In this document: positions 1,174 to 29,118 of the stretch, in pieces
Position numbering within the stretch: the first letter of the stretch is position 1
Layout of the letters: every line of letters begins with the position of its first letter
DNA from: a virus
DNA length: 29,754 nt
IMG/VR virus record: IMGVR_UViG_3300037230_000038
Span: 1-29,754 of that record
Strand: one strand, 5' to 3'
The notes under the pieces: model-generated
What the model saw: the letters and a program-made list of their open reading frames with translations, nothing else
Told to the model about the DNA's origin: nothing
Databases searched by the model: none
Made by a program: the position numbers and the translations under genes

Positions 1174-1203
1174 TGTCCGAGTTTGTTATTCTCGGACATT
1201 TTT
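1174..1203 (+). terminator. Rho-independent terminator after the first small operon
   Basis: A perfect 8-bp inverted repeat, TGTCCGAG (1174-1181) and CTCGGACA (1191-1198), encloses a 9-base AT-rich loop and is followed by TTTTT at 1199-1203. It lies 11 bases after the stop of the 116-aa gene. The T-run overlaps the annotated TTG start of the recombinase, which suggests the recombinase has its own promoter or a slightly later start. Confidence 0.8.
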
Positions 1204-11818: not shown

Positions 11819-12766
11819 ATGAAAAATACTCTGAAAACTTCGCTGATTCTCTGTGGTTTGCTCCTGGCGGCTTCGATGTCGTTCGCGCAAACTATTGTTT
11901 CGCACACCACGCTGTCGGCTGCGATCACTTCGACCAACTCGCAGGCGAACACCTTCCGGCTCACCTCGACCACGGGCATCGTTGCCAACTCGACGATGCT
12001 CTACCTCGACGGCGAAGCGGATTTCGTGAACGCCGTAACTTCGACCACGGTTTCGGTGACGCGTGGCCAGCCCACTTCCCGTGTTTCGACGCACCTGAGT
12101 GGCACCCTAGTCTGGTTCGGCCCTCCGTCTGAGTTCTACTTTCAGAATCCGGTCGGCTATCCCAGCGGCAGCTGCACCCGCAGTCAGTCCAGCGTTCTCC
12201 CTTACATCGACGTGAACAATTCGATCATCTCGGATTGCCTGGGCGGCGTGTGGGTGAACGGCATCACCACTCCGCTGACGCCGACGGTGATTTACTCTCC
12301 GCCTTCGGGCGGATCGGTGTTGACCGGGGTCGGAACCTCGACCACGACCACCAACACCAGCATGTACTGCTCGGAGATCGATCTGCCCTTCAATAAACTG
12401 TTGACCGGCCTTCGCGCTCTGAATGGTACGGCGGTCGGCAATGGCAATCGGCTGGTGGTGCTCTACGATGCGGCGGGGAATCTGCTCGCCAACAGCGCCA
12501 CGGCGGGAGCGGCTACGGCAAATGCCAGCACTTACCAGAGCTACGCCTTCACCTCGCAGTACTTTGCGGTGGGACCGGCTCGGTACTTCGGGTGCTCGCA
12601 GGCCGCGAATAGCTCCGACTCGCTGAATCTGGTCGTGACGGCGGATGGCAACGCTGGGCTTCTGACCCAAATTTACACGGGACAGACGTTCGGCACCATT
12701 CCCACCACCATCACCCCTTCCGCCGCTTACACCACGGCGCAGGGGCCGTATTTCGCGTTCTACTAA
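11819..12766 (+). CDS. Signal-peptide-bearing coat-adjacent structural protein
   Basis: Starting at ATG 11819 the 315-residue product has a clear Sec signal peptide: basic MKNTLK, a hydrophobic core (ILCGLLLAA) and a cleavage-like SFAQ-T at about residue 24. The mature N-terminal domain (TTGIVANSTMLYLDGEADFV, then STTVSVTRGQPTSR) resembles a beta-rich module common beside coat genes in environmental phages. The C-terminal half is beta-rich and Gly/Ala/Ser-heavy, perhaps carbohydrate- or surface-binding. The mature chain has four Cys. A minor capsid or decoration role would fit the position, but the signal peptide points to export. A terminator follows the gene. Confidence 0.75.
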   Translation: MKNTLKTSLILCGLLLAASMSFAQTIVSHTTLSAAITSTNSQANTFRLTSTTGIVANSTMLYLDGEADFVNAVTSTTVSVTRGQPTSRVSTHLSGTLVWFGPPSEFYFQNPVGYPSGSCTRSQSSVLPYIDVNNSIISDCLGGVWVNGITTPLTPTVIYSPPSGGSVLTGVGTSTTTTNTSMYCSEIDLPFNKLLTGLRALNGTAVGNGNRLVVLYDAAGNLLANSATAGAATANASTYQSYAFTSQYFAVGPARYFGCSQAANSSDSLNLVVTADGNAGLLTQIYTGQTFGTIPTTITPSAAYTTAQGPYFAFY

Positions 12767-12775
12767 GTTGATCCG

Positions 12776-12810
12776 GGAGCGCGGTCGAACCTGGCTGCGC
12801 TCCTGATTTT
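12776..12810 (+). terminator. Intrinsic terminator after the coat operon
   Basis: GGAGCGCGGTC (12776-12786) pairs with GGCTGCGCTCC (12793-12803), an 11-bp stem with two G-U pairs and a 6-base loop, followed by TGATTTT. It lies nine bases after the stop of the secreted coat-adjacent gene and would limit transcription from the highly expressed capsid block. Confidence 0.75.
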
Positions 12811-12816
12811 CTCCCC

Positions 12817-13326
12817 ATGCCCCTGAACGAATCGACCGGCAAAGCCCCGCGCGAGCGTTGGCCGCTCGAATTCGATTTGACCGGCGTGCCGCGCGACACG
12901 ACGACCCGCAAACAGCTCTTAGAACAGAAACGCAATATCGAAACTCTCGAAACATTTTCCGAGGAATCTATGCCCACTGTGCAATCCGTCCGCAACAGCT
13001 TCACCGTCGATCAGCCGACCACCGATGGTCCCGCGATCACCGACATCAACAACCCGCCGCGCAGGAACTACAACCCGCGCGATGCGAAAAACGAATTCCC
13101 CAGGATGCTCTACAACCACGAAACCGGGCGCGTGCTCAAAGTGGAAAACGAAAAAGAGCAGAAGGCGGCGCTGAAACGCGGCTTCGATCTGAAGCCCTCG
13201 CCGGATCACGACTACTCGAAGGTGAGCCGTGCGGGAATCGCCGCGAAAGCCAGCTCCGAGCCGAAGCGCGAAGAGGAGATGTCGGCGGAAGAGTTGGCGG
13301 CGCTCGACGAGCAGGATGTCGGCTAA
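12817..13326 (+). CDS. Hypothetical protein in the capsid-adaptor interval, 169 aa
   Basis: This 169-residue, charged protein has a basic middle with FPRMLYNHETGRVLKVENEK (about 107-126), a segment that resembles a small conserved phage family usually found near coat genes and having the form 'PxMLYxxxGRxxxV'. The C-terminus is Glu-rich. ATG 12817 gives the full frame but lacks a ribosome-binding site. ATG 12970 has GAGGA five to six bases before it and would give a 118-residue protein that keeps the conserved part, so it may be the real start. The stop overlaps the convergent minus-strand gene in CTAA. Confidence 0.7.
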   Translation: MPLNESTGKAPRERWPLEFDLTGVPRDTTTRKQLLEQKRNIETLETFSEESMPTVQSVRNSFTVDQPTTDGPAITDINNPPRRNYNPRDAKNEFPRMLYNHETGRVLKVENEKEQKAALKRGFDLKPSPDHDYSKVSRAGIAAKASSEPKREEEMSAEELAALDEQDVG

Positions 13327-13700
13327 CTGAACGCGGCGTCGAATTTGTACACGATGTCGCACGCCATCACATCCCAGTGCCGCAAACAACGGATGCTCAC
13401 ACCGCCAATCGGATCGCGGGCGGTGTAATGATACCCAAAGCTCTCGGGCAGCGGAAGAAGTTTGTGGCAGCGCGTGAATTCTGGTCTGATTTCCGCTGCA
13501 AATTTGCGTGTCATCTCCGGCAGTACGTGAAGTAGTTCGTTGCTCTTGACTACCGCTGAAACAAAATCGCGGCGTTCGTTTTCTTTGAGCAACTCTTCCA
13601 CATACTCGAATCTACGACCATTCATCTCGTTTACGACGTGCCGCAGGAATTCCATCGTGAGTTCAGGCATCGTCAGAGTTTTCTCGTCGAGTATCGCCAC
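13323..13700 (-). CDS. Minus-strand 125-aa protein (cassette 2), unknown function
   Basis: This 125-residue protein is soluble and helical in its first half (MEFLRHVVNEM, FEYVEELLKENERRDFV) and has His/Cys/Trp residues toward the end (RCLRHWDVMACD). No known fold is recognised. It is encoded against all neighbouring genes and exactly fills the gap between plus-strand genes: its stop overlaps the left neighbour's stop by four bases (CTAA). The GTG start has no Shine-Dalgarno site; TAGACT lies six bases before it. Codon use is less GC-biased than the plus-strand genes by eye, which would fit recent acquisition. Confidence 0.7.
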   Translation of the reverse strand: MAILDEKTLTMPELTMEFLRHVVNEMNGRRFEYVEELLKENERRDFVSAVVKSNELLHVLPEMTRKFAAEIRPEFTRCHKLLPLPESFGYHYTARDPIGGVSIRCLRHWDVMACDIVYKFDAAFS

Positions 13701-13706
13701 ACCAAA

Positions 13707-13712
13707 AGTCTA
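13707..13712 (-). promoter_or_regulatory. Leaderless-type -10 element of cassette 2
   Basis: On the minus strand TAGACT is followed by six bases and then GTG. It is preceded by TGGGGT. No -35 element lies at 16-18 bases. It overlaps the leader of the plus-strand adaptor gene. Confidence 0.6.
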
Positions 13713-13717
13713 ACCCC

Positions 13718-14548
13718 ATGCCCATCGCCCCTCCAGTCAATCCCCCGGCACCCCTGAGCTACAAGGTCTACGACATCTGCAAAGATGCCCTGATCGAAAT
13801 CGGCGCGGTCGCGCCTGGCGAAGACCCGGCTCCGGATGAAGCGCAGTGGGTCTTCCGCAAATTCAACTATCTGGTGGACATCTGGCAGGCGAAACAGTTC
13901 TACGTTTTTTCCTATGCCTTCAACGTCTACACGCTGATCGCGAATCTGAATCCGCAGACTATCGGGCCGAGCGGCCTGGCAACATTCTCGACCAAAGGCC
14001 AGCCGCGCCCGGTGCGCATCGAATCGGCGAATCTGCTTTTGCAAAACGACACCACCTCGGGCCTGGTCGATCTCGCGATCAATATCCGCGACCGGCAATG
14101 GTGGGCCGCGCAGCAGGTCAAAAACATTCAGACGAATGTTCCGACCGATCTCTACTACGACCCCACTTCGCCCGATGGCTCGCTGTATTTCTGGCCGGTG
14201 TGCAACGTCTCGCGCCAGGTGCGGCTGGAAATCTGGCAGACAGTTTCGCAGTTCGTCTCGATTCAAGATCCGATCGGCGGACCAGGCGGACCCGGAACCT
14301 TGCCTCCGGCCTATCGCGCGGCGCTGATGCTCACGCTGGCGGAGATGCTGCTCTCGGGCTCGAATCGCGCACCGTCGGCCTCACTCGAAAAGAATGCGCT
14401 GCTGGCGAGAGCGGCCGTGTTTGGGAACAACACGAAGAGTCCACGCATTGCAACGCAGGACTGCGGGATGCCGCAGGCGAAGCCGAGCGGGCAGAAGCAG
14501 GATTTCAACTGGGCGTACGGGAACTATCCGGGGGGAAGGCCGCAGTGA
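13718..14548 (+). CDS. P22 gp4-like head-tail adaptor
   Basis: This 276-residue protein lies after coat and before the gp10-like gene, the position of P22 gp4, the adaptor that docks on the portal after DNA packaging. The N-terminal helical region, YDICKDALIEIGAVAPGE followed by QWVFRKFNYLVDIWQ at about 47-61, has the family pattern of 'two helices with a conserved LG, then LNxxLxxW'. Aromatic residues cluster in the middle (RQWWAAQQ, LYFWPVC). P22 gp4 is shorter (about 166 residues), so this version carries C-terminal additions. Upstream is TCTAACCCC with no ribosome-binding site. Confidence 0.8.
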   Translation: MPIAPPVNPPAPLSYKVYDICKDALIEIGAVAPGEDPAPDEAQWVFRKFNYLVDIWQAKQFYVFSYAFNVYTLIANLNPQTIGPSGLATFSTKGQPRPVRIESANLLLQNDTTSGLVDLAINIRDRQWWAAQQVKNIQTNVPTDLYYDPTSPDGSLYFWPVCNVSRQVRLEIWQTVSQFVSIQDPIGGPGGPGTLPPAYRAALMLTLAEMLLSGSNRAPSASLEKNALLARAAVFGNNTKSPRIATQDCGMPQAKPSGQKQDFNWAYGNYPGGRPQ

Positions 14549-14858
14549 GGACGGAAGGCCCGAGTCTTTCCCACGTTCCATCGGCGCGTCTCCATTCGAG
14601 TTTCTTTACCCGGAAACCCGAAGGATGCGGCGAGAAAATCTCGCGTATCACTATGGTCTCTTGCTTCGCGTTCCACTCATCTACAACCCGATTCAGTGCT
14701 TGCATGGCGCACGTGTAATTTTCGGAGAAATCGAAAGTGGATTTCGGGATCACAATCTCTTTCGGGAAGCTCCACACCCGGCCCAGCGGAATCGCATGCT
14801 CCAGGGCGATCCCGGCGATGCCAGATCCGAAGAGTGAGAGGAACGAGCGGCGGTTCAT
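14505..14858 (-). CDS. Minus-strand small protein with a Tat-like signal (cassette 3b)
   Basis: Starting at ATG 14858 the 117-residue product opens MNRRSFLSLFGSGIAGIALE: twin Arg followed by S-F-L matches the Tat core, and a weakly hydrophobic stretch follows. I reject the longer frame from 15050 because the ATG overlaps the stop of cassette 3a (ATGA), implying coupling. The mature part, VWSFPKEIVI then NRVVDEWNAK, has no metal ligands and no known fold. Tat signals are usual for folded cofactor proteins; small 'MNRRSFL' proteins are known in environmental phages without a role. The last 44 bases overlap the adaptor gene antisense. Confidence 0.7.
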   Translation of the reverse strand: MNRRSFLSLFGSGIAGIALEHAIPLGRVWSFPKEIVIPKSTFDFSENYTCAMQALNRVVDEWNAKQETIVIREIFSPHPSGFRVKKLEWRRADGTWERLGPSVLTAAFPPDSSRTPS

Positions 14859-15034
14859 GGAACGACTGGCTTTTCTTTCCGTCGATTTTGTACTTCCTGA
14901 CCGAATTGCGAGCGCGGCCACTCGAACACAAAACCAACAATCGAAATTCCCCAAAAATCTACTGTCCAGAAAAAGCCGAGTAAGTTGACGCCCCAACAGG
15001 TCGCATTCGGCTTCCACTGATTCCAAATTCTCAT
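14855..15034 (-). CDS. Minus-strand 59-aa membrane protein (cassette 3a)
   Basis: Read on the minus strand from ATG 15034, this gives 59 residues: a short basic start (MRIWNQWKP), a Trp/Phe-rich hydrophobic stretch (about 13-38, including NLLGFFW and ISIVGFVFEW) and a charged tail (VQNRRKEKPVVP). One or two membrane passes are likely. It overlaps the Tat-signal gene by four bases and so would share its message. A leaderless-type TAGAAT lies six bases upstream of its ATG. Function unknown; together the pair suggests an envelope-acting moron. Confidence 0.65.
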   Translation of the reverse strand: MRIWNQWKPNATCWGVNLLGFFWTVDFWGISIVGFVFEWPRSQFGQEVQNRRKEKPVVP

Positions 15035-15040
15035 GGAGAC

Positions 15041-15046
15041 ATTCTA
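15041..15046 (-). promoter_or_regulatory. Leaderless-type -10 element of cassette 3
   Basis: On the minus strand TAGAAT is followed by six bases and then ATG of the 59-aa gene. The TGGG context of the other cassettes is not conserved here (GCATTGC precedes). It abuts the ATG of the gp10-like gene on the other strand. Confidence 0.55.
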
Positions 15047-15049
15047 GCA

Positions 15050-16798: not shown

Positions 16799-16992
16799 AA
16801 GTCATGTAGAGCCCGAAGTTGCCCAAGTAGTTCTTCGCACGCTTCACGCAAGATGTTCTCGCATTCTTTATCGTCGTCGGACCTGATTCCTTGGTTTTGC
16901 GGACCCTTGGCGGGCTCGCCTCTGTGGCGCAGTTTAGCGCCGTACTTCTCCATCACGAAGTCGATCGCGTCGTCGTCCGTCAGTATCGTCAT
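16795..16992 (-). CDS. Minus-strand 65-aa acidic protein (cassette 4)
   Basis: This 65-residue acidic protein starts MTILTDDDAIDFVMEKYG and has a second helix near the end (ECENILREACEELLGQLRAL). No motif is recognised; a small acidic helical protein could be an inhibitor or adaptor. Its stop overlaps that of the gp10-like gene in the palindrome CTAG (16795-16798), so the cassette fits its gap almost to the base. There is no Shine-Dalgarno site; TAGAAT lies six bases before the ATG. Its first codons (ATGACGATACTG) resemble those of cassette 2 (GTGGCGATACTC). Confidence 0.65.
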   Translation of the reverse strand: MTILTDDDAIDFVMEKYGAKLRHRGEPAKGPQNQGIRSDDDKECENILREACEELLGQLRALHDF

Positions 16993-16998
16993 CGGCGA

Positions 16999-17004
16999 AT
17001 TCTA
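16999..17004 (-). promoter_or_regulatory. Leaderless-type -10 element of cassette 4
   Basis: On the minus strand TAGAAT is followed by six bases and then ATG. It is preceded by ATGGGT, as in cassettes 1 and 2. No -35 element is evident at the usual distance. Confidence 0.6.
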
Positions 17005-17008
17005 ACCC

Positions 17009-18045: not shown

Positions 18046-18052
18046 TCCTGAA

Positions 18053-18058
18053 AGTCTA
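18053..18058 (-). promoter_or_regulatory. Leaderless-type -10 element of cassette 5
   Basis: On the minus strand TAGACT is followed by seven bases and then GTG. It is preceded by ATGGGTT. The hexamer is identical to that of cassette 2 and the following bases (TTT) also match. Confidence 0.55.
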
Positions 18059-18063
18059 AACCC

Positions 18064-18813
18064 ATGTCAGTCGTCAGCTCACTTCTCGGCGCCGGGGGCT
18101 CGATCGCCAACGGCATTATCGGATCAAACGCAGCGCAAGGCGCAGCGAGCGCGCTCGAAGGCGGGGCGCAGCAGGCGCAGGCGCTTGAACTCTCCAATCA
18201 GAATTCGGCCAATACCGCGCAGCAAACTGCGCTCTCAAATGTCACCTCAGCCGAGCAGCCTTATCAAAGCGAAGGTTCGACCGGCGCGAATGCCGTCGCC
18301 GGTTACATCTCGAATGGCGGCTTCACCGCACCCACGCTGCAGCAAGCCCAGCAGACTCCCGGCTACCAGTTTCAGCTACAGCAAGGCACGCAGGCGATCA
18401 ATGAGAACGCGGCGGCCAATGGGACGCTCCTGTCCGGCAACACCGGCACGGCGCTTGAAAACTACGGCCAGAATCTAGCCCAGAACGCTTACCAGCAGAC
18501 CTACAACAATGCGCTGAATGCGTATCAGACGAACGTGTCCACGGCGCAAGGTGCGGCCAATACCGGGATCTCTTCCACCGGGCAACTGGCTTCGACCAAT
18601 CTCGGCGTGGCCGGAAATACCGCGAACATCGATCTCACCGCCGCCCAGCAGCAAGCCCTGCAGATCAATAACGCAGCCCAGGCGAAAGCCGGTGGCATCA
18701 CGGGATCGGCGAACGCCATCGAAGGGGCCATCGGCGGGGCGACGGGGGCGGCGCAGGGCGGCATTGCTGCCAGCCAGATGCCCTCCTGGGCCTCGTCGGG
18801 ACTGGGGTTCTAA
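18064..18813 (+). CDS. P22 gp7-like DNA ejection protein
   Basis: This 249-residue protein is close to P22 gp7 in size (about 229) and occupies the first ejection-protein position. It is rich in Gln, Ala, Asn and Gly; it opens with a glycine-rich hydrophobic stretch (SLLGAGGSIANGIIGSNAA) and contains a conserved-looking PGYQFQLQQGTQAINENAAANG block at about 100-121. In P22 the three ejection proteins leave the head before the DNA and form a channel through the envelope. The Gly/Ala C-terminus (EGAIGGATGAAQGG) fits a membrane-active protein. TCTAAACCC precedes the ATG. Confidence 0.8.
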   Translation: MSVVSSLLGAGGSIANGIIGSNAAQGAASALEGGAQQAQALELSNQNSANTAQQTALSNVTSAEQPYQSEGSTGANAVAGYISNGGFTAPTLQQAQQTPGYQFQLQQGTQAINENAAANGTLLSGNTGTALENYGQNLAQNAYQQTYNNALNAYQTNVSTAQGAANTGISSTGQLASTNLGVAGNTANIDLTAAQQQALQINNAAQAKAGGITGSANAIEGAIGGATGAAQGGIAASQMPSWASSGLGF

Positions 18814-18816
18814 ATT

Positions 18817-20421
18817 ATGGCAGCCTACGCACCTCTCGGCGGTCTTCCGCAAGCTCAGGCTTTAGGGCAACAAGGCGCTCTTCAGTCCCAGCAGGTCAAT
18901 CAGAACGCGCTCGCCGAATATACGAAGGCCGCCCAGGAAAAGCAGCAGACTGCGCTCCTGCAGCAGCAAACCCAGGCCGCGGCCCAGGAGAACCAGATTC
19001 GCCAGCAGCAGATGAAAGACCAGGATGCGCTGACGAAAACCATCACGCAATACGATCCTTCACAGCACTCCATTTCCGATATTCCAAAAATGGTGACCGC
19101 GAACGGCGGATCGGGGCAGGCCGCGCTACAGGCGCAGCAAGGGCTCATCGCGCAGCGGAAGAATCTCGCTTCGCTCTCCGATGAGCAGTTCGCCGAAGAG
19201 CAGAAGAAAGCCGATCTCATCCAGGGGGTGCATGACCAGGTCAGCCAGGCGGCGCCGGAACAAAAGCAGGATGTGTACTCGCGTGGATTGACTTCTCTGC
19301 AGAACGCCGGAGTTGATGTCTCGAAAGAGCCGCTGCAGTATCCCGGCGACGATGTGTTCGCGCAGCACTTACCGGCGATCCGGCTGCACTCGGCGATTGT
19401 GGCCGAAGCGGAAAAAGATCGCGAACTCTCGGCCAAAGAACAGGAAGCGCAGGCCAAGGAACAAACCGCCAATCAAGGGAATTACGAAGTCGTGCCCGCG
19501 CTTGGTGTCCGCGTCAACAAGACCACCGGAGAAACCACGCCGATCAATGGAGCCGCGCTCTCTCCGCAGATGATGGAAGGCAAGTACGTGGCGCTGGCGC
19601 AGAAGAAAGCTGCGAATCAGCCACTCAGTGCGGATGATGCGGCATTCATGAAGGGCTACGAGAAATATAAAACGCTGGTGCCAACCGCGACCGTGAACCT
19701 GCAGGCTGGACTCCTGAACCCGCAAGCGAAGCAGATGGCGGCTGATCTTTATACGCAAACCGGGCAGTTGCCCGCTGGAATGCGTTCTCCTGCGATGAGT
19801 GCTGGAATTCTGAATCAGGCTGCGGGAGCGCCCGGAACGCAAGCGCCGAATATCGCGCAGAACAAAATGAACTACGGCGCCGCAACTGCGTTGCAGAAGT
19901 CGGCAACCTCCGGCGACATGGCGAAAAACATCACATCATTCAACACTGCGATCGCTCACGCCTCGCAACTGAAAGAAGCTGCCGACGCGCTCGACGATGG
20001 CGACGTGCATCTGCTGAACGCGCTCGGCAACCAGATGGGCTACCAGTTCGGCTCGGACAAAACCACCAACTTCAACGTCATCAAAAACGCGCTCTCCGGG
20101 GAAATCTCGAAAGTGTTCAAGGGCGGCGAAGCGACCGACGCGGAAATCAAAGCCGTGCAAGAACCGTTCTCTGCAGCAAATTCCCCGGTGCAATTGAAGG
20201 GCGCGATCGATAACGCGATCCACCTGATGAACTCAAAACGAGATGCCCTCAAAGATCAGTACACGCAAGGGATGAAGGGGCAGCCGAATTTCGGCGGCGA
20301 AAATGGCGGCGTGCAACATGTCGCCGGTGGTCAAGCGCAAGGATTGAACGAAGGCGCGACCGGAACAGGGTCCGACGGCAAAAAGTACGTCGTGAAAAAT
20401 GGAGTCTGGGCTCCGCAGTAA
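18817..20421 (+). CDS. P22 gp20-like DNA ejection protein
   Basis: This 534-residue protein follows the gp7-like gene after three bases. Residues 8-70 are a Gln/Ala-rich coiled coil (QALGQQGALQSQQ, then EKQQTALLQQQTQAAAQ). The middle is mixed, and the C-terminal part has a distinctive block, MGYQFGSDKTTNFNVIKNAL then GEISKVFKGGEATDAE, at about 407-447, which resembles the conserved ends of phage internal proteins. P22 gp20 has 471 residues. The assignment rests on gene order, size and composition; no catalytic motif such as a transglycosylase is seen. Confidence 0.7.
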   Translation: MAAYAPLGGLPQAQALGQQGALQSQQVNQNALAEYTKAAQEKQQTALLQQQTQAAAQENQIRQQQMKDQDALTKTITQYDPSQHSISDIPKMVTANGGSGQAALQAQQGLIAQRKNLASLSDEQFAEEQKKADLIQGVHDQVSQAAPEQKQDVYSRGLTSLQNAGVDVSKEPLQYPGDDVFAQHLPAIRLHSAIVAEAEKDRELSAKEQEAQAKEQTANQGNYEVVPALGVRVNKTTGETTPINGAALSPQMMEGKYVALAQKKAANQPLSADDAAFMKGYEKYKTLVPTATVNLQAGLLNPQAKQMAADLYTQTGQLPAGMRSPAMSAGILNQAAGAPGTQAPNIAQNKMNYGAATALQKSATSGDMAKNITSFNTAIAHASQLKEAADALDDGDVHLLNALGNQMGYQFGSDKTTNFNVIKNALSGEISKVFKGGEATDAEIKAVQEPFSAANSPVQLKGAIDNAIHLMNSKRDALKDQYTQGMKGQPNFGGENGGVQHVAGGQAQGLNEGATGTGSDGKKYVVKNGVWAPQ

Positions 20422-20424
20422 GTC

Positions 20425-22722
20425 ATGTCCGCCGCTCCAACCCTGACCTGGGAGCAGTACCAGAAACTCCCTCCGGGCAAGCGATCGCGGCCGCTGACCG
20501 ACGCCGAATTCGCCGCGCTCACAAAACCGCAACGTATCGCAGCCGGACTTGACGAAGACGACCAGGGCGCACCGGCAAATTTTAATGGTCCTGTTTTTCC
20601 CAATCCCGATCACATTCGTCCGCAGCTCGACACCGACTCCGCGATCCCGGTCACGCGGCTGCCGAATGGAGTCAGCTTCCAGAAAGGTAACTTCTCGGGA
20701 GCGCCGCCGATGGATGTGTCGAATCCGGCCGCGACGGATGTCATCCCGGCGATGGGGCGTGAAGTGGGGGCGAATATGAGCGGGCAACCCGTCACCATCA
20801 CGCCCGACACTTCCGGAGCGCCGCCGGTCACGATCACGCCGGATGCAGCTCCGAAGAAAAGCCTCTATCAGCAAGGCCGCGACGCCTACGACGCCGCACA
20901 TGGAGACGTGGGATCACCGGGAAGTTCCGAAGGCGCAGGCCTGCGCGGTGGACTCTCCGACTGGGACGAAGCTTCGTTCGGAGAAATCGGCGGCGGTGTC
21001 AAAGATATTCTCTCCGGCAACGTCGCTCGCGGACTGCATCGCATCATCAGCGGCGGCGGTTCGATGGCAATGCCGGCGGCCGCGCTCGCCGCCCCTGCAG
21101 CGCCTTTAACAACTGCTGCAAGCGTTGTCGGCGGAACTGCTGGCGGAAAGATTGCACAGAAAGGCGCGACGGCCCTCGGGGCAACTCCAGACCAAGCGGA
21201 CCTAGCCGGAGATGTGGGCTCGATTGTCGGGGGAGTGGCTGGCGCAGGAGGTGTAGCTGGAGCCAAATCGGGTTTGCGTGCAGTGGGGAATACTGCTACG
21301 GAACTCGGCGCGGCGGCGGACCCAGATGTGGTTGGAATGGTGTCGCCGCGTGCGGCGAACGCTCTACGCGTCGCAAAGAAAGTTGGCAAGCTCGCCACTA
21401 AATTCAGCGGCGATGAAACTCCGCCGGTCTATCCCGGAGCTACAGAACCAACAGGCGCACCGGAGCAAATCAATCCCGCGCTCGCAAGTGAAGCGCGTTC
21501 CCTTCCCGGTCAAATCAGCCCGGAAGTGATTCGCCCGCCCGTCGAGACAGCACAACCAATCCCGCCACGTTCGGGGCTCGCATTGCCCGCAGCACCTCCA
21601 GCGCGCAATCCGGCGGCTGAACTGCCAGCGGCATTTCAACCTCCTCCGCCGAAAGCTCCGCCCGTGCCTGGCACGGCAGATGCGCCGTTTAAATCTCTCT
21701 CGGAACTGTCGCCGAAAGCAGTTGACCAGGCGATCCAGGAATTAGGCCCGAAGGCATCCGTCGCCGACCTCACGCAACGCGCAAACACTCTCGAACAGCA
21801 ACTCAATACCGCTCTGGGCGGAAAGCCACTCGTACCCGGCGTCTCACTCAAGAATCAGCCAGTCGCGCAGGGCGTGAAACTTCCTGACGGATTTACTCCA
21901 GTCGATTCGTCGATGTTGAAAGGCTACAAGTACGACCCGGACGCGCAGCACTTCGAAGTCATCACCAACGATGGAAGCCGCTACGGAAGAATGGGAACCA
22001 CTCCCGACCAGGCGGCAGCGTTTGAAGAAGCCGATTCGAAGGGCCGCGCTTGGAATGTCCTGAAAAACTCGCCCGGAGTGATCGCCACGAAAAACGGAGC
22101 GCCGCGCACGGTTCCACTGTCCATGCGCTCGGCAGCGCCGGAAGACGCGGCGTCTGGACAGACACCTGGACAAACGGCCGGACAAACCACTGCCCCAGCT
22201 ACCGCGAAAGCCGCACCAGAAGCCGGAAGTGCAGAGACAGGCGATCTGCAATCCCAACTAGAGAAAATGCTCGATGAGGTAGTTGGTCAAAAGAAGGCAG
22301 CGGCGAGAGCCGGCGCGGACACGAGTTCGACTTCCATCCTCAATCGCCTGGTGAAAGGCGAAGCGGGCCAGGCCGGAGCGCCAGGAAGTGTCACGGATGC
22401 CGATGAAGGAATCGCGGACATTCAAAATCGCCCCACATCATCGACCAAGACGGGAGAAGTTCCGGCGCGCGGCTTCCTGAATAAAGTCGGAGCCGACGAG
22501 AACAGCGTCCTCAAAACCCAGGGAGATTTGGATAGCGTTTTCTATCACCGTCAGCAGATCGCAAAAAACGGGACGCCGAACGTGGAGCTACACGTGGATG
22601 AGGCGGGCAATGTGATCGGGGCGCAAGGACGACACCGCGCCATCGCGGCGATTCAGCAAGGCGGACCAGGTGCGAAAGTTAACGTCACGATTTATAAGCA
22701 CCCTTTCCAGTCTCCTGAGTAG
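20425..22722 (+). CDS. P22 gp16-like ejection protein with KTSC and ParB-like domains
   Basis: This 765-residue protein is third in the ejection series and longer than P22 gp16 (609). Residues 1-200 are polar. A hydrophobic Ala/Gly region follows at about 213-260 (MAMPAAALAAPAAPL), suited to membrane insertion, then a Pro-rich linker. Residues about 490-555 (MLKGYKYDPDAQHFEVI, then GSRYGRMG and EADSKGRAWN) resemble a KTSC domain. The last 45 residues (VELHVDEAGNVIGAQGRHRA) match the N-terminal ParB/Srx-like nuclease signature, with the GRHRA motif. Both modules occur in polyvalent phage proteins delivered with DNA. The final 38 bases overlap a minus-strand gene. Confidence 0.7.
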   Translation: MSAAPTLTWEQYQKLPPGKRSRPLTDAEFAALTKPQRIAAGLDEDDQGAPANFNGPVFPNPDHIRPQLDTDSAIPVTRLPNGVSFQKGNFSGAPPMDVSNPAATDVIPAMGREVGANMSGQPVTITPDTSGAPPVTITPDAAPKKSLYQQGRDAYDAAHGDVGSPGSSEGAGLRGGLSDWDEASFGEIGGGVKDILSGNVARGLHRIISGGGSMAMPAAALAAPAAPLTTAASVVGGTAGGKIAQKGATALGATPDQADLAGDVGSIVGGVAGAGGVAGAKSGLRAVGNTATELGAAADPDVVGMVSPRAANALRVAKKVGKLATKFSGDETPPVYPGATEPTGAPEQINPALASEARSLPGQISPEVIRPPVETAQPIPPRSGLALPAAPPARNPAAELPAAFQPPPPKAPPVPGTADAPFKSLSELSPKAVDQAIQELGPKASVADLTQRANTLEQQLNTALGGKPLVPGVSLKNQPVAQGVKLPDGFTPVDSSMLKGYKYDPDAQHFEVITNDGSRYGRMGTTPDQAAAFEEADSKGRAWNVLKNSPGVIATKNGAPRTVPLSMRSAAPEDAASGQTPGQTAGQTTAPATAKAAPEAGSAETGDLQSQLEKMLDEVVGQKKAAARAGADTSSTSILNRLVKGEAGQAGAPGSVTDADEGIADIQNRPTSSTKTGEVPARGFLNKVGADENSVLKTQGDLDSVFYHRQQIAKNGTPNVELHVDEAGNVIGAQGRHRAIAAIQQGGPGAKVNVTIYKHPFQSPE

Positions 22723-23008
22723 GCTCTGGAAAGAGGAGAGCAGCGGCCTGCATCTGGGCCATCACTGACTCTAGAACCGCGTCAGGAAGTTCGGCGGTTT
22801 CACGTTCCGGGAAAGGTTCCGACACCATGAGGGGCGTTGGTTGCGAGTAGCGGTCCATAAGCTTCGCCGGCTGGCCGCAACAGATCGCGGGCAGCAGATC
22901 CTTTATGGCGCGGCGGTGACGAAATCGCTTGCAGCTGCCCTGGCACTTCCAGACTTCGCGCTTCTCCCAGTTCACGATCTCGTATTCGATGGAGTCAGCT
23001 TCGACCAT
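22685..23008 (-). CDS. Minus-strand 107-aa Cys-containing protein (cassette 6)
   Basis: This 107-residue protein has CQGSC (Cys22, 26) and a CC pair (43-44), a possible zinc site in a basic N-terminal half (CKRFRHRRAIKDL), and an Ala/Glu-rich helical end. Its ATG (23006-23008 on the plus strand) overlaps the divergent ATG of the fibre gene in CATG. Upstream of its start lie TAGGAT five bases away and AGGA six bases away, so leaderless or leadered translation is possible. It overlaps the ejection gene's 3' end by 38 bases. Confidence 0.65.
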   Translation of the reverse strand: MVEADSIEYEIVNWEKREVWKCQGSCKRFRHRRAIKDLLPAICCGQPAKLMDRYSQPTPLMVSEPFPERETAELPDAVLESVMAQMQAAALLFPEPTQETGKGAYKS

Positions 23009-24491
23009 GCCTAATCCTATCTCCGCCCTCCGCCGCTTCCTAGACCACCAACGGGGGGTTACCCTCTTCGCTTTGGTGCTATTACTACTGAGTACCTTCG
23101 TGCATTCGCAGACGGCCGTCGTCCTGGCGCCGCTGCCCCAGCTCCAGTTCTTCGATCAGACCGGAACTCCTCTGGCCTTTGGCTGTGTCTTCACTTACCA
23201 GGTCAACTCAACCTCACCGCTTGCGACTTATACCGACTACACCGGGGTGACGCAAAATGCGAATCCGGTGATCCTGACGGCCGGCGGATCGGCGAACATC
23301 TGGCTTCTCGCGGGACAGGCCTATACCTTCCAGGTGAAATCAGCCGGTGGCACGAAGTGCTCAGCGGGAAGCACGCTCTACACAGTGAACGGCATCGGTG
23401 GCGGGGCAAGCACGCTCACGACCATCGTTCCCTACTCTCCAACTCCAGCCTTTCAGGATGCGGCACAGAATCAACTCTTCGAAATCACTCTTACCGGCAA
23501 CGCCAGCGCGCAGCCCTTGACCTTCGTGGGAGTGACTCCGCCGGGTTTCATCACTTTTCAGATCACGCAAGATGGAAGCGGCGGACACACGTTCTCCTGG
23601 CCGGCTAATTCGATCGGCGGCTGTACCATTGGCGGCGCCGCCAACCAGGTGACAACACAGCAGTTCGTTTACAACGGCACGAATGCGACCGCGATCGGGC
23701 CATGCGTCACCGGAAGCGGTCCGCAGCTGGGCACGGGAGATATTTATGATTACGGATTGAGTTCAGGCGCGCAGCCGGTCTGCTCGGACAATTTTCTTCT
23801 AACCTCCATCTGCAGCACCGTCTTGGAGATCACCGTGAACGGGCAAACTATTCCACCCGGCGGCTCGGGCAACGTGAACGTCAGCGCGGCGACACACTCG
23901 CTTGCGCTGAATGAAGGCAACGGCAACGCCATCACCGGGCTCTTGCTCGCAAACAATCAGATCCCCGTTGGACAAACCAGCACCAATCCGACGGGCTCGA
24001 CCATTCCGACGTGTGGCGCGGGAACGCATTTATTTTTCTCGGGTACGCTGCCCCTGACCTGCACGGTCGATCTAGCGATTCAGGCATTTAACGAGGAGCT
24101 GTTGGGCTCGCCGGTGAGTGTTTCCGCAAACACTGCGACGACGTATCTCTCGCACCAGATCACGATGCCATCGAGCGGCTGTCCCTGCCGGGTGCAGGCA
24201 AGCTACGGAGCTTATTTCACGACGGGCAACACGGGAATTATCGTCGCCTGGATCTCTGATGCGACTGTCACTTTTTCCACTGCGCAGGTGGATGGAGCGA
24301 ATTCGTTTTCGAATGGCGGAATCAACGGCAGCGGCTTCTCCCCTACTTACGCGAACAGTGCGGTTGTCACCTTCAGCGCGCAAATTGAAACTTCGGTTTC
24401 GGGCGGCTTGACGGTGAACGTGAGCAACAATTCCGGCTTCCCCGCCGCGCAATCGACCTGGATGGATCTCGCCGTCTTCACCAGTAACTAA
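23007..24491 (+). CDS. Tail-fibre-like protein with Sec signal peptide
   Basis: From ATG 23007 (GGAG about 13 bases upstream) the 494-residue product has a basic N-region (LRRFLDHQRG), a hydrophobic core (VTLFALVLLLLS) and a cleavage-like VHSQ-T near residue 35. The mature N-terminus FFDQTGTPLAFGCVFTYQ, then PLATYTDYTGVTQNANPVIL and IWLLAGQAYTFQV, follows the head-binding/fibre N-domain pattern of tailspikes ('GxPLxGGxxxxY...TYxDxxGxxxNxNPVxL...G'). The C-terminal part is beta-rich, Gly/Ser/Thr-heavy, with 10 Cys in the mature chain. A fibre domain behind a signal peptide is unexpected. Confidence 0.75.
   Translation: MPNPISALRRFLDHQRGVTLFALVLLLLSTFVHSQTAVVLAPLPQLQFFDQTGTPLAFGCVFTYQVNSTSPLATYTDYTGVTQNANPVILTAGGSANIWLLAGQAYTFQVKSAGGTKCSAGSTLYTVNGIGGGASTLTTIVPYSPTPAFQDAAQNQLFEITLTGNASAQPLTFVGVTPPGFITFQITQDGSGGHTFSWPANSIGGCTIGGAANQVTTQQFVYNGTNATAIGPCVTGSGPQLGTGDIYDYGLSSGAQPVCSDNFLLTSICSTVLEITVNGQTIPPGGSGNVNVSAATHSLALNEGNGNAITGLLLANNQIPVGQTSTNPTGSTIPTCGAGTHLFFSGTLPLTCTVDLAIQAFNEELLGSPVSVSANTATTYLSHQITMPSSGCPCRVQASYGAYFTTGNTGIIVAWISDATVTFSTAQVDGANSFSNGGINGSGFSPTYANSAVVTFSAQIETSVSGGLTVNVSNNSGFPAAQSTWMDLAVFTSN
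23014..23019 (-). promoter_or_regulatory. Possible -10 element of cassette 6
   Basis: On the minus strand TAGGAT is followed by five bases and then ATG, one base closer than in the other cassettes. The AGGA within it could act as a ribosome-binding site instead, so this assignment is weaker. Confidence 0.35.
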
Positions 24492-24535
24492 TTTTTCGAC
24501 TTCCCCTCAAAAACTCTTTCGAAAGGATTTCCTTT

Positions 24536-26656
24536 ATGAACCTTCGCCGATCGTTTCTTCTCCGATCCCTGCTTCGCCGCTTTCTGTTTTTCCTGTTTGC
24601 GCTCGCGCTGAGTCCGTCGCCCCCTTTGCTGGCGCAATCGACCGCGAAAACGTTCACTCTCACGGCCGCGAATCAGTGCGCGACCATCGGGGTCACTGCG
24701 TTGCCGACGGTCGGAATCTATGTGAGCGGAACCTTTTCGATGACCTTGCAGCCCGAGGTTTCGATCAATGGTTCGACGCCGCAGAATTCGCAGGTCACGC
24801 CTTCCACTTCGACCACGCCGCAATCGACGATCACCACAACCGGCAATTACCTGGCCGCAGTCGGAGGCTACGATTCGTTCCTGCTGTGCGTATCGAGCTA
24901 CAGCTCGGGCTCGGCAACGGTTGTGCTGAATCCTTCACCGGCGCTGAATGCTGGATTGATCGGAGGGGCGGCGGGGAGCGCGACTGCAGCGGCTCTCAAT
25001 GGCGTGTATGCCGCGAATGGTTTCGGTCTGCACGACGACGGGCGGTTCATTCTCGACGTGAGCACCAGCCTTTCATCTCCGACCGTTACTTGCCCGAATA
25101 ACGATTGCAACTTCACTGCCGCAGATAACGGGAAAATCTGCTTCGCCACGAATATGACGCAGGGCGGCGGACCGAACTTCAGAACCGCGAAGGTGATTCT
25201 GGGGCAAGCCACACTGACCGTGCTCACATCTCAGACGGCAAACTGCGGAAGTTCGAACGCGAATACCGCAGTCTCCGCCGCTGGGGTGTTTATCTGGGGA
25301 AGCGATGACACCACTCCGCTAAAAAACGCCTTTACGCAAGCTCTAGGCTCATGCTCCGGGCTGATTCTTCCTGGCACTAACAGCCAGGGAACGGGACCGG
25401 CGGCCATGTTAGTACAGGCCGCCGAGTTCGGCTACACCGGGACGATGGCGACGAATGCGAACTGTTCGCTGGGGGTAGGGGAATCGGGGCGAGGGATGGC
25501 GGTAAGGGGACAGGGAGAGCGCACCAGCTATGTCATCCCGACGCCGAACTTCGATCCCACGACTTGCACCTTCGGACCGAACGCGCAAGGGTGTTTTTTC
25601 GGCACACCCGATGGATACGAAATCAGTGATTTCACAATTTGGGGCGGGGGCAACGCGAATCCTGGCTCCGGTTTTAACGGGAAAACCGCCGTGAATATGG
25701 GCGGAGCGAACTGGGTCTACGCCCATGATATGCAGTTTTTGGGCTGGGGTGCGGGAAACACGAACGGAATCGGCGGAGCGGGAATCTATATTGCCGGTCT
25801 CTACGCCGTCCTCGATCACGTCAACCTGGATGGATTTGGCGGCGGCAATGGTAGTTCTGCGGTCCTAGCCGGAGGGGCCACGGAAATTATCGGCGGACAG
25901 TTCTGGGATGTCAGCGGAAACCTGCTGGAGATTTCTAGCGCGATTCCCACCCCGGTGCAGACCTTCGGCAACACGATGGGAGACGCTTTTACCGGCAAAT
26001 GCGTGGTCAAGGTGGACAACTTCAGCACTTGGAACTCCTACGGGGACATCATTGGCTACGACATCGCCAACCCTGGAAACCTGATCTGCGCATCCACTGC
26101 TGGGTACGTGATGAATCTTTCTGGCGATTCCCTAGCTACCAACACCACGGGGATCACCGCGATCAGCAACCCGGCTTCCACCGGCATCGTGCGCTTGCAG
26201 AATACGACGATCTCTGTTCCCAGTGGCACGGCGATCAATAACGTCGGCTCTTATTTCGATCTTGGCGGCAATCAAATTCTTTCGGCGACAACCCCTTACA
26301 CCGGCGCGGGCAACGTCTTCGGCTCACTCTCGATCACCGGCACAGTACAGACCTCCGGCAATGTTGCGTTGACCGGTTTCGGCAGTTCGCCTTCCGTGGG
26401 CACGGTGAGTGGAGACAGCCGCCTAGAACAGTTCACCATTACGATCGGCTCAACTCCTACTACGGGATCGATGGTGGTCACTTTTCCCACGCCCTTCTTA
26501 ACGGCTCCGATTTGCAACGCGCCGGTTGTGGCTGGCACCAACACCACGCTCGGCTACTTCACTCCCGGAACGATCAGTGCGACCAGCGCGGCTTTCACCT
26601 ACGTGGGAACTCTAGTGGGAGCGGATACCTTGGTCGTGCAGGTAGCTTGCCAATGA
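24536..26656 (+). CDS. Tailspike-like beta-helix protein with Sec signal peptide
   Basis: This 706-residue protein starts with a strong signal peptide: arginine-rich MNLRRSFLLRSLLRR, hydrophobic FLFFLFALALS, and LLAQ-S near residue 34. AAAGGA precedes the ATG. The middle (about 280-560) reads as a parallel beta-helix, with short repeats such as YEISDFTIWGG, VYAHDMQFLGWG and AVLDHVNLDGFGG. A beta-rich Gly/Thr C-terminal domain (TITIGSTPTTGSMVV) could be receptor binding. The mature chain has 14 Cys. It sits where P22 encodes its tailspike, so receptor recognition or polysaccharide degradation is likely, with the export signal unexplained. Confidence 0.75.
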   Translation: MNLRRSFLLRSLLRRFLFFLFALALSPSPPLLAQSTAKTFTLTAANQCATIGVTALPTVGIYVSGTFSMTLQPEVSINGSTPQNSQVTPSTSTTPQSTITTTGNYLAAVGGYDSFLLCVSSYSSGSATVVLNPSPALNAGLIGGAAGSATAAALNGVYAANGFGLHDDGRFILDVSTSLSSPTVTCPNNDCNFTAADNGKICFATNMTQGGGPNFRTAKVILGQATLTVLTSQTANCGSSNANTAVSAAGVFIWGSDDTTPLKNAFTQALGSCSGLILPGTNSQGTGPAAMLVQAAEFGYTGTMATNANCSLGVGESGRGMAVRGQGERTSYVIPTPNFDPTTCTFGPNAQGCFFGTPDGYEISDFTIWGGGNANPGSGFNGKTAVNMGGANWVYAHDMQFLGWGAGNTNGIGGAGIYIAGLYAVLDHVNLDGFGGGNGSSAVLAGGATEIIGGQFWDVSGNLLEISSAIPTPVQTFGNTMGDAFTGKCVVKVDNFSTWNSYGDIIGYDIANPGNLICASTAGYVMNLSGDSLATNTTGITAISNPASTGIVRLQNTTISVPSGTAINNVGSYFDLGGNQILSATTPYTGAGNVFGSLSITGTVQTSGNVALTGFGSSPSVGTVSGDSRLEQFTITIGSTPTTGSMVVTFPTPFLTAPICNAPVVAGTNTTLGYFTPGTISATSAAFTYVGTLVGADTLVVQVACQ

Positions 26657-27279
26657 AGATGAAACGCTTTCTTTTTCTCGCGGTCTTAGTTTCGGCGTCT
26701 CTTTCGTTCTCGCAGAACGTGCGCTACTCCGCCGCCTTCCCTTCCATCTCTTCGACCACAACCACGCCGTACCTGGTCGCCAATGTCGCGCCGAATCTGC
26801 CGACGCTCTCGGTGTGCAACTCGCCGGCGAATCAGGTTCCCTGCACCAATTACGCGACCACGTACACCAGCGCTGGAGTTGCCTGCTCGAATGGCAGCCA
26901 GGACACGCCCGATCCGCAGCCGTCGAGCTGTCAAAACACCGGCGACGCGCAAGGCAACGTCGGCTTCTGGGCCGCGCCGGGCAAATACGATTACACCGTC
27001 TGCATCCAGAACACGACTACCTGCTACGGCCCGTACACGGTGACGCTCGCGATCGGCGACACCAACGGCACTTGCACCATGACAGGCGGGACGTGCGCAG
27101 CGATCACATTTGCGACCGCTTATAAGACCACACCCACTTGCTCCGTGACCTGGACGGGAACGGGAACGCTCACCGGATTTCTCGCCAGCCAGCGGACCAG
27201 CTCCGGGCTGCAGCCGAAGTCGAGCGTGAATTCTGATACAGCGGTCGTCGATTGGAAGTGCCAGGGAGCGCCGAACTAA
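26653..27279 (+). CDS. Secreted Cys-rich small fibre-like protein
   Basis: The ATG at 26653 overlaps the preceding TGA (ATGA), giving 208 residues; Met at 26659 is an alternative start. Signal peptide: MKMKRF, hydrophobic LFLAVLVSAS, cleavage-like SFSQ-N near residue 21. The mature chain contains YTSAGVACSNG, then GNVGFWAAPGKYDYTVC, a module that resembles the short beta-domain of the upstream fibre ('TYTxxxG ... W-APGxYxYxV'). Ten Cys in about 187 residues suggest disulfides after export. It is coupled to the spike gene, so it may be a partner or cap. Exact role unknown. Confidence 0.7.
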   Translation: MKMKRFLFLAVLVSASLSFSQNVRYSAAFPSISSTTTTPYLVANVAPNLPTLSVCNSPANQVPCTNYATTYTSAGVACSNGSQDTPDPQPSSCQNTGDAQGNVGFWAAPGKYDYTVCIQNTTTCYGPYTVTLAIGDTNGTCTMTGGTCAAITFATAYKTTPTCSVTWTGTGTLTGFLASQRTSSGLQPKSSVNSDTAVVDWKCQGAPN

Positions 27280-27292
27280 TTCAGGAACCCCC

Positions 27293-27769
27293 ATGAACTC
27301 CATCCAGCGACAATTTCTCGACGCGGCCACGGCGCAAGCTCTGAAAGCCAACCATCCTTTCCCGCAGATGGCCGCATGCGAAGCCGCGCTCGAATCTTCG
27401 TGGGGACACAGCGAGCTGGCGCGCGAAGCCAACAACCTTTTCGGCATGAAGCAGCACGCGCACCCGATCTACGGCACGATGAATTTGCCGACCGAGGAAT
27501 TTATCGGCGGCAACTGGCTCTCGGTCACGGCGCACTGGGTGAAGTATTCCGACTGGCGCGCCTGCTTCGCCGATCGGCTGGCAACCCTCGAAAGACTTTC
27601 GAACGCCTACCCGCACTACAAAGCCGCGATCGACGCGAAAGACGCGCACACCTACATCACGGAAGTGTCGAAGACCTGGTCCACCGATCCGAATCGCGCG
27701 CTGAAGGTGGAAGGAATTTACGCGGAGTACACGGCGGTCCGCCCGGCGCCGCCCACGAGTGTCACCTAG
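27293..27769 (+). CDS. Endolysin: glucosaminidase-family muramidase
   Basis: This 158-residue protein is a single glucosaminidase domain (FlgJ C-terminal / GH73-like), cleaving peptidoglycan glycan strands. Visible motifs: ACEAALESSWGHSELA with catalytic Glu34 in ESSWG, NLFGMKQH, then YSDWRACFADRL and YPHYKAAIDA, and WSTDPNRALKVEGIY near the end, all characteristic of this family. There is no signal peptide or transmembrane segment, so a holin is needed for release; the next gene is a good candidate. The ATG lies 13 bases after the previous stop. Confidence 0.9.
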   Translation: MNSIQRQFLDAATAQALKANHPFPQMAACEAALESSWGHSELAREANNLFGMKQHAHPIYGTMNLPTEEFIGGNWLSVTAHWVKYSDWRACFADRLATLERLSNAYPHYKAAIDAKDAHTYITEVSKTWSTDPNRALKVEGIYAEYTAVRPAPPTSVT

Positions 27770-27823
27770 AAAAACCTCATCCTCTCGAAAACCTTGGTAG
27801 GTAGAAAAGGAAAACTCCACACC

Positions 27824-28090
27824 ATGAAACAACTGAAAGCTCTCTGGACTTCCCTGCCCTCCTGGGCGAAGGGTTGCATTTTTATCGGAGGAAGCGCCGC
27901 CTCGGGTGCGATCAAGAAATACTTCGAGACGCCAAACGCCTGCCTGAGTTTGCATTGTCTCGCGATCGTCGCACTCTCCGCCCTACATGTGGGATGCATT
28001 GCCGCCGTGGGATGGGTCATGCAATCGCCCGTCGGAAAAACTTTGCTGGCCGATGTCGAGCAGCAATCCCAATCCCCCGCAGTGAAGTAG
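27824..28090 (+). CDS. Holin-like membrane protein
   Basis: From ATG 27824 (GAAAAGGA about 12 bases upstream) this 88-residue protein has two hydrophobic stretches, about 19-36 (GCIFIGGSAASGAI) and 43-66 (LSLHCLAIVALSALHVGCIAAVGWV), with a charged N-terminus and polar C-terminal tail. Size, topology and location directly after the endolysin fit a class II-type holin that permeabilises the inner membrane. Its stop abuts the next gene (TAG-ATG). Identity as a holin is from context, not from a conserved motif. A longer TTG start at 27794 is less likely. Confidence 0.7.
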   Translation: MKQLKALWTSLPSWAKGCIFIGGSAASGAIKKYFETPNACLSLHCLAIVALSALHVGCIAAVGWVMQSPVGKTLLADVEQQSQSPAVK

Positions 28091-28537
28091 ATGGAACACT
28101 GTCTCTTTCTCTCCACTGTTGAGTTCGATCCGGAGTCGCTTGCCATCCGCGTGCAAACGGAATGCGCCTGGTCACACGTGGGATTTCTGCGGCTCGCGGA
28201 CGACTGGACGTTCTCGGCGATGGCGGATGAAAAAGGTGTAGCCTGGCGCGCGCCGAATCCGAAAGCGAAAGTGTTGAAACTCTCGGGCGCAAACATCGAA
28301 GCGGCGCTCGCTCGCGCACTCACGCAGGAAGCGAAGCCTTACGACAAGCTGGATATTGTCGGACTGGCGCTGGGCGCGAATTTCGAGACCAAGGGTTCCT
28401 TCATCTGCTCGACGCTGGTGGCCTGGTCGTTTGAGCAGATCGGCGCGCCGCTGCTGAATCCGACGTTCATTCCGCGCGAGCACCTCACCCCGCGCGACAT
28501 TTTACTCAGCCCGTTCGTGGCTGAACTCAAACCGTAA
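28091..28537 (+). CDS. Permuted NlpC/P60 (YiiX/YebB-type) cysteine hydrolase
   Basis: This 148-residue protein has the permuted papain-like order: His first (WSHVGF, His29), then Cys in FICSTLVAWSFEQIG (Cys106). The 'SHVGxL' and 'FxCSxLVAxxxxxxG' motifs match YiiX/YebB-type permuted NlpC/P60 hydrolases, which cleave amide or peptide bonds in peptidoglycan or modify lipids. It starts at once after the holin-like gene and is in the lysis cassette. No signal peptide is present. It could be a second lysin or a virion-associated hydrolase; substrate unknown. Confidence 0.75.
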   Translation: MEHCLFLSTVEFDPESLAIRVQTECAWSHVGFLRLADDWTFSAMADEKGVAWRAPNPKAKVLKLSGANIEAALARALTQEAKPYDKLDIVGLALGANFETKGSFICSTLVAWSFEQIGAPLLNPTFIPREHLTPRDILLSPFVAELKP

Positions 28538-28557
28538 ACACACAAGGAGAATTTTCT

Positions 28558-29118
28558 ATGAAGGGTTTCACGCTCGCATTTCTCTCGCTCGCTCTGTCTC
28601 TGGCGAGCTTCGCGCAAACCGCACCCGCTGCACCGACTGCGCCCGCACCGATTGCGACAGCCGCGGCTCCCAGCGCCTTTCCGAGCACCACTTTTTCGGT
28701 GAACCTTTCGCCGATCACCTTGCCCGGCGGAAAAAGTTCGGTGACCGGGACGATGAACGGAGCCTCCATCAGCGTCACGCCCAACGTGGACGTGGAGAAT
28801 CTGAACATCATCTCGACCAGCTTTAATTACTTTGCGGGCGGCGCGAAATATTTTCTGCCCTCGCTCTCGAAGGCCCTCAACAATGCCAGCCCCACACTGA
28901 ACGGCTTCAACTTTCAGTTCTATCTCACCGGCACCGTGGGCGCGGTGAAAGTCTTGGGCGGCCCGCAAGGCGGCCACTGGGGAGAGACGGTCGGCGGCGG
29001 CATCAACTATGCCTTCAGCGGCAACATCGGCTTAGGCGTGGAAGTGCAATACGCGAAGTTGCCGGGTTACGCGAATAACACCTGGCTCGCGGCCTTCGGA
29101 CCGAATTTCCACTTCTAA
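28558..29118 (+). CDS. Secreted outer-membrane beta-barrel-like protein
   Basis: This 186-residue protein has AAGGAG before its ATG and a Sec signal peptide (MKGFTLAFLSLALSLASFAQ-T near 20), then an Ala/Pro-rich linker. The rest alternates hydrophobic and polar residues (FNFQFYLTGTVGAVKVL, GETVGGGINYAFSGNIGLGVEVQYAKL) and ends in Phe (FGPNFHF), the C-terminal signature of outer-membrane barrels. Phage-encoded outer-membrane proteins such as lambda Lom are known to alter the lysogen's surface. It may mask receptors or modify adhesion. It overlaps a convergent gene in CTAA. Confidence 0.7.
   Translation: MKGFTLAFLSLALSLASFAQTAPAAPTAPAPIATAAAPSAFPSTTFSVNLSPITLPGGKSSVTGTMNGASISVTPNVDVENLNIISTSFNYFAGGAKYFLPSLSKALNNASPTLNGFNFQFYLTGTVGAVKVLGGPQGGHWGETVGGGINYAFSGNIGLGVEVQYAKLPGYANNTWLAAFGPNFHF

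Follow-up and report, generated by a model that had tools for sequence, protein, structure and literature searches.

A 29,754-base virus record from IMG/VR (IMGVR_UViG_3300037230_000038; G000, hereafter the window, meaning this whole stretch) holds a P22-like head module followed by a fiber cassette and a lysis cassette, and four of its putative virion proteins, encoded from positions 11819, 23007, 24536 and 26653, carry predicted Sec signal peptides (SPs). In these proteins and their homologues we see strictly conserved SPs, cysteine pairs specific to the SP-bearing forms, even cysteine counts and an attachment domain at the mature N terminus, from which we infer that the proteins are processed, form disulfides, collect in the periplasm and are added late, at lysis. 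We lean toward the view that a large clade of tailed phages divides its assembly, with DNA-filled heads made in the cytoplasm and disulfide-bonded fibers, spikes and decoration proteins made in the periplasm and joined to them at lysis, a trait that would have been gained together with the paired cysteines.

Signal peptides on putative fiber and decoration proteins

The features on which the argument turns are the following, with lengths in amino acids (aa).

10492-11754, plus strand: P22-type coat protein without SP, the reference point (PF11651, E 3e-24; phrog_283, E 8e-48)
11819-12766, plus strand: coat-adjacent protein, predicted exported, SP MKNTLKTSLILCGLLLAASMSFA with predicted cut before Q, 4 Cys in the 292 aa of the mature chain (intact homologues all SP-bearing)
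11819-11887, plus strand: SP of the coat-adjacent protein (rule-based call)
23007-24491, plus strand: tail fiber or spike with predicted exported head-binding domain, 34-aa SP, mature chain with 10 Cys (profile matches to 9vyg and 7eeq)
23007-23108, plus strand: SP of the 23007 protein (rule-based call; alignment with SP-less spikes)
23109-23420, plus strand: head-binding domain with conserved Cys pair, FGC-V-FTY and GGT-x-C (homologue alignment)
24536-26656, plus strand: large spike-like protein, predicted exported, 14 mature Cys (SP in 17/17; tail-fiber PHROG matches)
26653-27279, plus strand: Cys-rich protein, predicted exported, 10 mature Cys (SP in 12/12; invariant Cys)

SPs were called with a rule-based scorer written for this analysis, with an explicit background, that evaluates the n-region, the h-region and an A-X-A-like site. 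An earlier note, made from the DNA letters alone, had described five Sec SPs in the window, and all five are borne out, with a positive n-region, a hydrophobic h-region and an A-X-A-like site, at the ends SMSFA↓Q (11819), FVHS↓Q (23007), PPLLA↓Q (24536), SLSFS↓Q (26653) and LASFA↓Q (28558), where arrows mark predicted cleavage. The first four are type I SPs with Ala or Ser before the Gln, and their proteins qualify by sequence as predicted substrates of Sec and signal peptidase I. The portal, scaffold, coat, connector and ejection proteins of the window have no SP by the same scorer, as the note had also observed for coat, portal and ejection proteins. Core families in 20 related contigs score 0, bar one false positive in an Ala/Gly-rich ejection family with 20 members; together with the SP-less phage contigs L261 and L262, these families served as negative controls that rule out chance hydrophobic N termini.

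No intact homologue lacks the SP, which is present in 33/33 coat-adjacent proteins, 18/18 members of the 23007 family, 17/17 of the 24536 family and 12/12 of the 26653 family (11/11 by rule and one by eye), a degree of conservation far beyond chance. The cleavage site reads [AGS]Q in 78 of 82 SPs, with canonical n-, h- and c-regions. Sequence divergence is faster in the SP than behind it (mean pairwise identity of SP and mature part: 0.25 versus 0.57 in the 23007 family, 0.33 versus 0.74 in the 26653 family), so what is conserved is the export signal and not its sequence.

Start codons downstream of the signal segments, which the earlier note had named as evidence that would speak against its reading, are hardly seen: a start with Shine-Dalgarno support near the mature N terminus occurs in 1 of 86 genes, and internal-start products were rejected because no conserved internal start could yield an SP-less form. 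The annotated starts are ATG in 33/34 coat-adjacent, 18/19 23007, 16/18 24536 and 12/12 26653 family members, and Shine-Dalgarno-like motifs precede several of the SP genes, including 23007, 24536 and 28558 of the window; the motif before 11819 is weak here, and its near relatives do have one. The note's suggestion of signal-like anchors fares poorly given the canonical A↓Q cleavage sites, and a membrane anchor was likewise rejected because there are nearly no hydrophobic segments other than the SP. In the open-access literature, our searches turned up no tailed-phage fiber described as carrying a Sec SP.

A tailspike head-binding domain behind a signal peptide

In the PDB, a profile of the mature 23007 family matches 9vyg at E 2.5e-5 and, at E 2.1e-4, the entry 7eeq, labeled "Tailspike head-binding domain". 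With the spike of Xanthomonas phage PBR31 (QIN95345), which is SP-less and starts at the domain, the N-terminal domain of mature 23007 shares 49.5% identity, and it also matches the SP-less spikes of Vibrio 1.211, ctNMl277, ctn9Y15 and DSL-LC05; the SP-less Rhodoferax P26218, PAE2 and ctfPj964 spikes are matched through more divergent members of the 23007 family. The domain alignment begins at mature residue 1 of 23007, and the SP thus precedes a domain that begins at the start codon in the spikes of gammaproteobacterial and Rhodoferax phages. Within 23007 this domain, which binds the head in solved spikes, is the most conserved part. It is present in the window and in 18 related contigs, always SP-bearing and never SP-less, and the gene order is that of PBR31, with ejection proteins, the head-binding-domain spike and then lysis genes. 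By sequence, we conclude that the N-terminal domain behind the SP is a podovirus tailspike head-binding domain.

The comparison with fibers of other phages that the earlier note had proposed thus yields known spikes that share the domain without the SP and without the Cys pair. Its reading of three proteins as tail fibers or spikes is supported for 23007, through the match to solved structures, and more weakly for 24536, through PHROG matches; 28558 is not a fiber.

Paired cysteines accompany the signal peptide

The mature chains of 11819, 23007, 24536 and 26653 contain 4, 10, 14 and 10 Cys, as previously counted, and 28558 contains 0. Of 74 distinct head-binding-domain homologues, 31 carry both the SP and the Cys pair, 42 carry neither, 1 has the SP with one Cys, and an SP-less homologue with the pair occurs 0 times (Fisher P 5e-20, a naive value given shared ancestry). 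The sampling behind this table was not random, since one of the two scan patterns required the first Cys; the second was neutral and returned both SP-bearing and SP-less homologues.

In the SP-bearing spikes of the 23007 family, the Cys count of the mature chain is even in 27/27 and, despite the relatedness of the sequences, takes six values between 6 and 16, compared with an even count in 9 of the 18 SP-less spikes that have any Cys. Cys density is 0.25 per 100 residues in SP-less spikes versus 2.10 in SP spikes. Coat-adjacent mature chains have even counts in 33/33, and overall the SP families reach 75/81 versus 42/110 for cytoplasmic virion proteins. The conserved pairs, the even counts and the lack of the pair in SP-less homologues agree with the earlier idea that these cysteines would suit disulfide formation in the periplasm, and these patterns make it very likely, in our judgment, that the proteins are exported and disulfide bonded.

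The other predicted exported proteins

The coat-adjacent protein is a likely candidate for a capsid decoration protein or head fiber. The structure model of its mature chain is all-beta (mean predicted local distance difference test score 83.6), and its best PDB match, a single one, is the cyanophage A4 capsid chain 9jwb_Z (Foldseek E 1.3e-4; template modeling scores 0.39/0.54). Family members match tail-fiber and virion-structural PHROGs, and an SP-bearing gene lies directly behind the coat gene in every relative with enough sequence. A wider scan of its homologues returned 49 SP-bearing and 3 SP-less proteins; one of the latter, in contig L250, has 0 Cys. Contig G512 encodes an SP-bearing fiber, yet its coat-adjacent protein is SP-less and Cys-less, showing that either exported part can come or go without the other.

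The 24536 family has a conserved N-terminal domain of its own, with an invariant Cys pair (C15, C85). Four different tail-fiber PHROG families are each matched by some member, and the relative in contig L048 gives a weak K1-lyase_C match. Six of the 10 mature Cys of 26653 are invariant in its family, whose members reach about 1000 aa and include one that matches a "head decoration" PHROG. Homology of the 24536 or 26653 N-terminal domains to the head-binding domain was considered and dropped, as hhalign gave no relation. Contig L050 (IMGVR 3300047539_000056) encodes a run of large SP-bearing proteins of 498, 422, 906, about 480, 778 and 1294 aa, by its sequence an extreme exported fiber cassette.

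Distribution and host

The window's coat protein retrieved 44 relatives from IMG/VR, whose records are often fragments, so that absence from one contig carries little weight. The viruses with SP-bearing fibers are a whole group of soil-type P22-like bacterial viruses among these records. The coat tree gathers 25 SP phages in a single, well supported group and places three more near SP-less ones; the SP label has to change 2 times on this tree and 3 times on a Cys-masked tree of the head-binding domain. These trees allow a single gain followed by losses as well as a small number of gains of the trait, and the SP and the paired cysteines were perhaps gained together more than once. No SP gene of at least 150 aa occurs in the stretches read of L261 and L262, two SP-less sister contigs. 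Two contigs of 44 kb and 65 kb (L049 and L051) have no detectable P22-type coat, yet they encode SP-bearing 24536 relatives, and the SP-fiber trait may by this sign reach other phage lineages.

A single match among genome contigs, L116 (C94, 29.1 kb), lies in the metagenome-assembled genome nzgw573, labeled Betaproteobacteria, which also holds a second contig of the same phage group (C16, 37.7 kb). This is weak evidence for a host, as the binning was possibly by composition. A 16S gene was sought for this host candidate and not found. SP style was discarded as a host discriminator, since it did not separate host candidates and A↓Q is common in the candidate too (11/27).

Neighboring genes

Coat, portal, scaffold, gp10-like plug and ejection genes of the window stand in P22-type order by profile matches, and by both coat type and gene order its sequence is that of a P22-like podovirus. 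Further features of the head and lysis modules are as follows.

Window: terminase (phrog_2)
Window: portal (phrog_156)
Window: scaffold (phrog_8865)
Window: gp10-like plug, Hc3 (phrog_578)
Window: DNA ejection protein (phrog_598)
27293-27769, plus strand: glucosaminidase endolysin without SP (PF01832, E 1.8e-17)
27794-28090, plus strand: putative holin (inferred from hydrophobic segments next to the endolysin gene)
28558-29118, plus strand: SP-bearing protein resembling an outer-membrane barrel, 0 Cys, C-terminal Phe (SP call, sequence features)

The three ejection-protein families at 18064-22722 (plus strand) lack any cysteine in the 16-19 contigs counted. A short tyrosine recombinase (189 aa) at 1202-1771 (plus strand) comprises the catalytic part only (PF00589, E 8e-16). 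Between terminase and portal, at 4251-5276 (plus strand), lies an SP-less, Cys-rich protein of 341 aa with a beta-helix-like look (NVYYCDPVNGLDTNDG), found in 10/21 contigs and possibly a cytoplasmic spike or head protein.

Homologues of 28558 occur only in G001 and G005, 2 of the 20 relatives tested, and it matches no family. Its features suggest a separate accessory gene and a Lom-like outer-membrane candidate with a putative barrel, possibly a lysogenic conversion gene. Lom of phage lambda (PMC12309495) is an outer-membrane barrel with an SP, and its gene lies near the tail genes; 28558 shares the SP and would share the fold if its putative barrel is real, and no sequence match between the two was found.

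Within the head cluster, an antisense open reading frame (14508-14858, minus strand) opens with the leader MNRRSFLSLF..AGIALEHAIPLGRVWSFPKEIVI, which is twin-arginine-like and strongly conserved; the tail of about 70 aa behind it is hypervariable. Among 22 distinct antisense frames of this kind in the relatives (for example, in L099, L116, L268, L036, L012 and L041), 15 have tails that match a virion-protein profile built from the group itself (coat in 14, gp10 in 1), compared with 0 of 440 shuffles. The coat segments differ each time (3-54, 28-62, 81-120, 99-122, 245-271, 370-405) and are usually not closest to the coat of the same phage; the tail in the window itself has no significant match to the group's virion-protein profiles. 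Such a fragment is possibly an exported decoy, an immunity factor or a relic, and it may be connected with the exported fibers or be independent of them.

How the exported proteins may reach the virion

Spikes and decoration proteins such as P22 gp9 and T4 Soc/Hoc add last, from outside, to finished particles. In the assembly that we propose, coat, scaffold, portal, connector and ejection proteins would be made and assembled in the cytoplasm, whereas the coat-adjacent decoration protein, fibers and spikes would be made as Sec precursors and cut by signal peptidase I at A↓Q. The mature fibers would fold in the oxidizing periplasm with all cysteines paired, and this periplasmic pool would join finished heads last, once holin and endolysin open the cell. 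Because the SP is found on the kinds of part that in P22, T4 and other phages add last from outside, and not on those built in early or from inside, a periplasmic pool is the simplest account. Completion of fibers and decoration in the periplasm, with addition at lysis, is thus the best explanation, and we consider it fairly likely that virions take up these proteins from the exported pool. Among the three meanings that the earlier note had offered, fibers assembled after export fits best, given the attachment domain at the mature N terminus, the synteny with PBR31 and the SP on all copies of the domain in the related contigs.

Several points weigh against this account. The exported pool must meet heads at lysis, when dilution would be severe. 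Even Cys counts are less regular in the 24536 (15/17) and 26653 (7/11) families, Cys and SP statistics share ancestry, which makes their P values naive, and the structure model of 23007 is poor in the head-binding domain, so that Cys-Cys distances are not measurable from it. The group is known from sequence records alone, and the coat fragments with twin-arginine-like leaders hint that some exported structural pieces may act off the virion.

The main rival, which we regard as unlikely though by some way the strongest of the alternatives, is that the exported proteins act off the virion, by modifying or masking receptors, blocking superinfection or serving as lysogen adhesins, and that virions use other proteins or a fraction of these. 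Secretion for its own sake would account for SPs and disulfides, the short integrase gene hints at lysogeny, and both an accessory SP-bearing outer-membrane-like protein and the leader-bearing coat fragments are found in these phages. However, the part of 23007 that is best conserved is the one that binds heads, the gene sits at the spike position, these contigs hold no SP-less copy of the domain that could serve the virion, and no surface anchor is seen.

A still less probable alternative is that export is inefficient, with part of each protein staying in the cytoplasm and joining virions and part exported for a surface role. PblA and PblB of Streptococcus mitis phage SM1 are reported to have such a dual localization, and slow or fast-folding precursors can escape Sec; however, strictly even, conserved cysteines make functional folding in the reducing cytoplasm unlikely, and no internal start would provide a cytoplasmic form. 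It is very improbable that the hydrophobic N termini have no export function and are either anchors that stay uncleaved or remnants of genes taken from hosts: although cleavage is predicted, the regions and cleavage sites are canonical, the SP is maintained in all homologues despite fast divergence, and its coupling with Cys pairs is near perfect.

If late addition from a periplasmic pool is correct, a clade with Sec-exported, disulfide-bonded receptor-binding and decoration proteins would break the rule of wholly cytoplasmic assembly, and periplasmic folding factors would become host requirements for phage infectivity. The combination of SP, head-binding domain and even Cys count would then find such phages in metagenomes, where annotation pipelines otherwise label these genes as host secreted proteins and miss phage receptor-binding proteins.

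Comparison with known systems

Podovirus tailspikes (7eeq, 9vyg and that of PBR31) have a homologous N-terminal domain, and their genes occupy the same position after the ejection genes and before lysis; the known ones start at the domain, with no SP and no Cys pair, whereas here an SP stands ahead of it and the cysteines are paired. The head module has the gene order of P22-like phages, to which the present group adds an SP-bearing gene directly behind the coat gene and the exported fiber cassette. The modeled fold of the coat-adjacent protein resembles that of cyanophage A4 chain 9jwb_Z, which we take, from its length, to be A4L_25 of Anabaena phage A-4L; unlike the coat-adjacent protein, A4L_25 has no SP and lies in the tail gene region.

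Tail proteins outside the virion are known from phage SM1, whose PblA and PblB are found on the host surface; they differ from the proteins described here in having no Sec SP and in being freed by lysis. Virion proteins with cleaved Sec SPs are known from inoviruses such as M13 (pIII and pVIII, the former with disulfides), which resemble the present group in this predicted respect; however, filamentous phages assemble in the membrane, whereas the assembly of tailed phages is taken to be wholly cytoplasmic.

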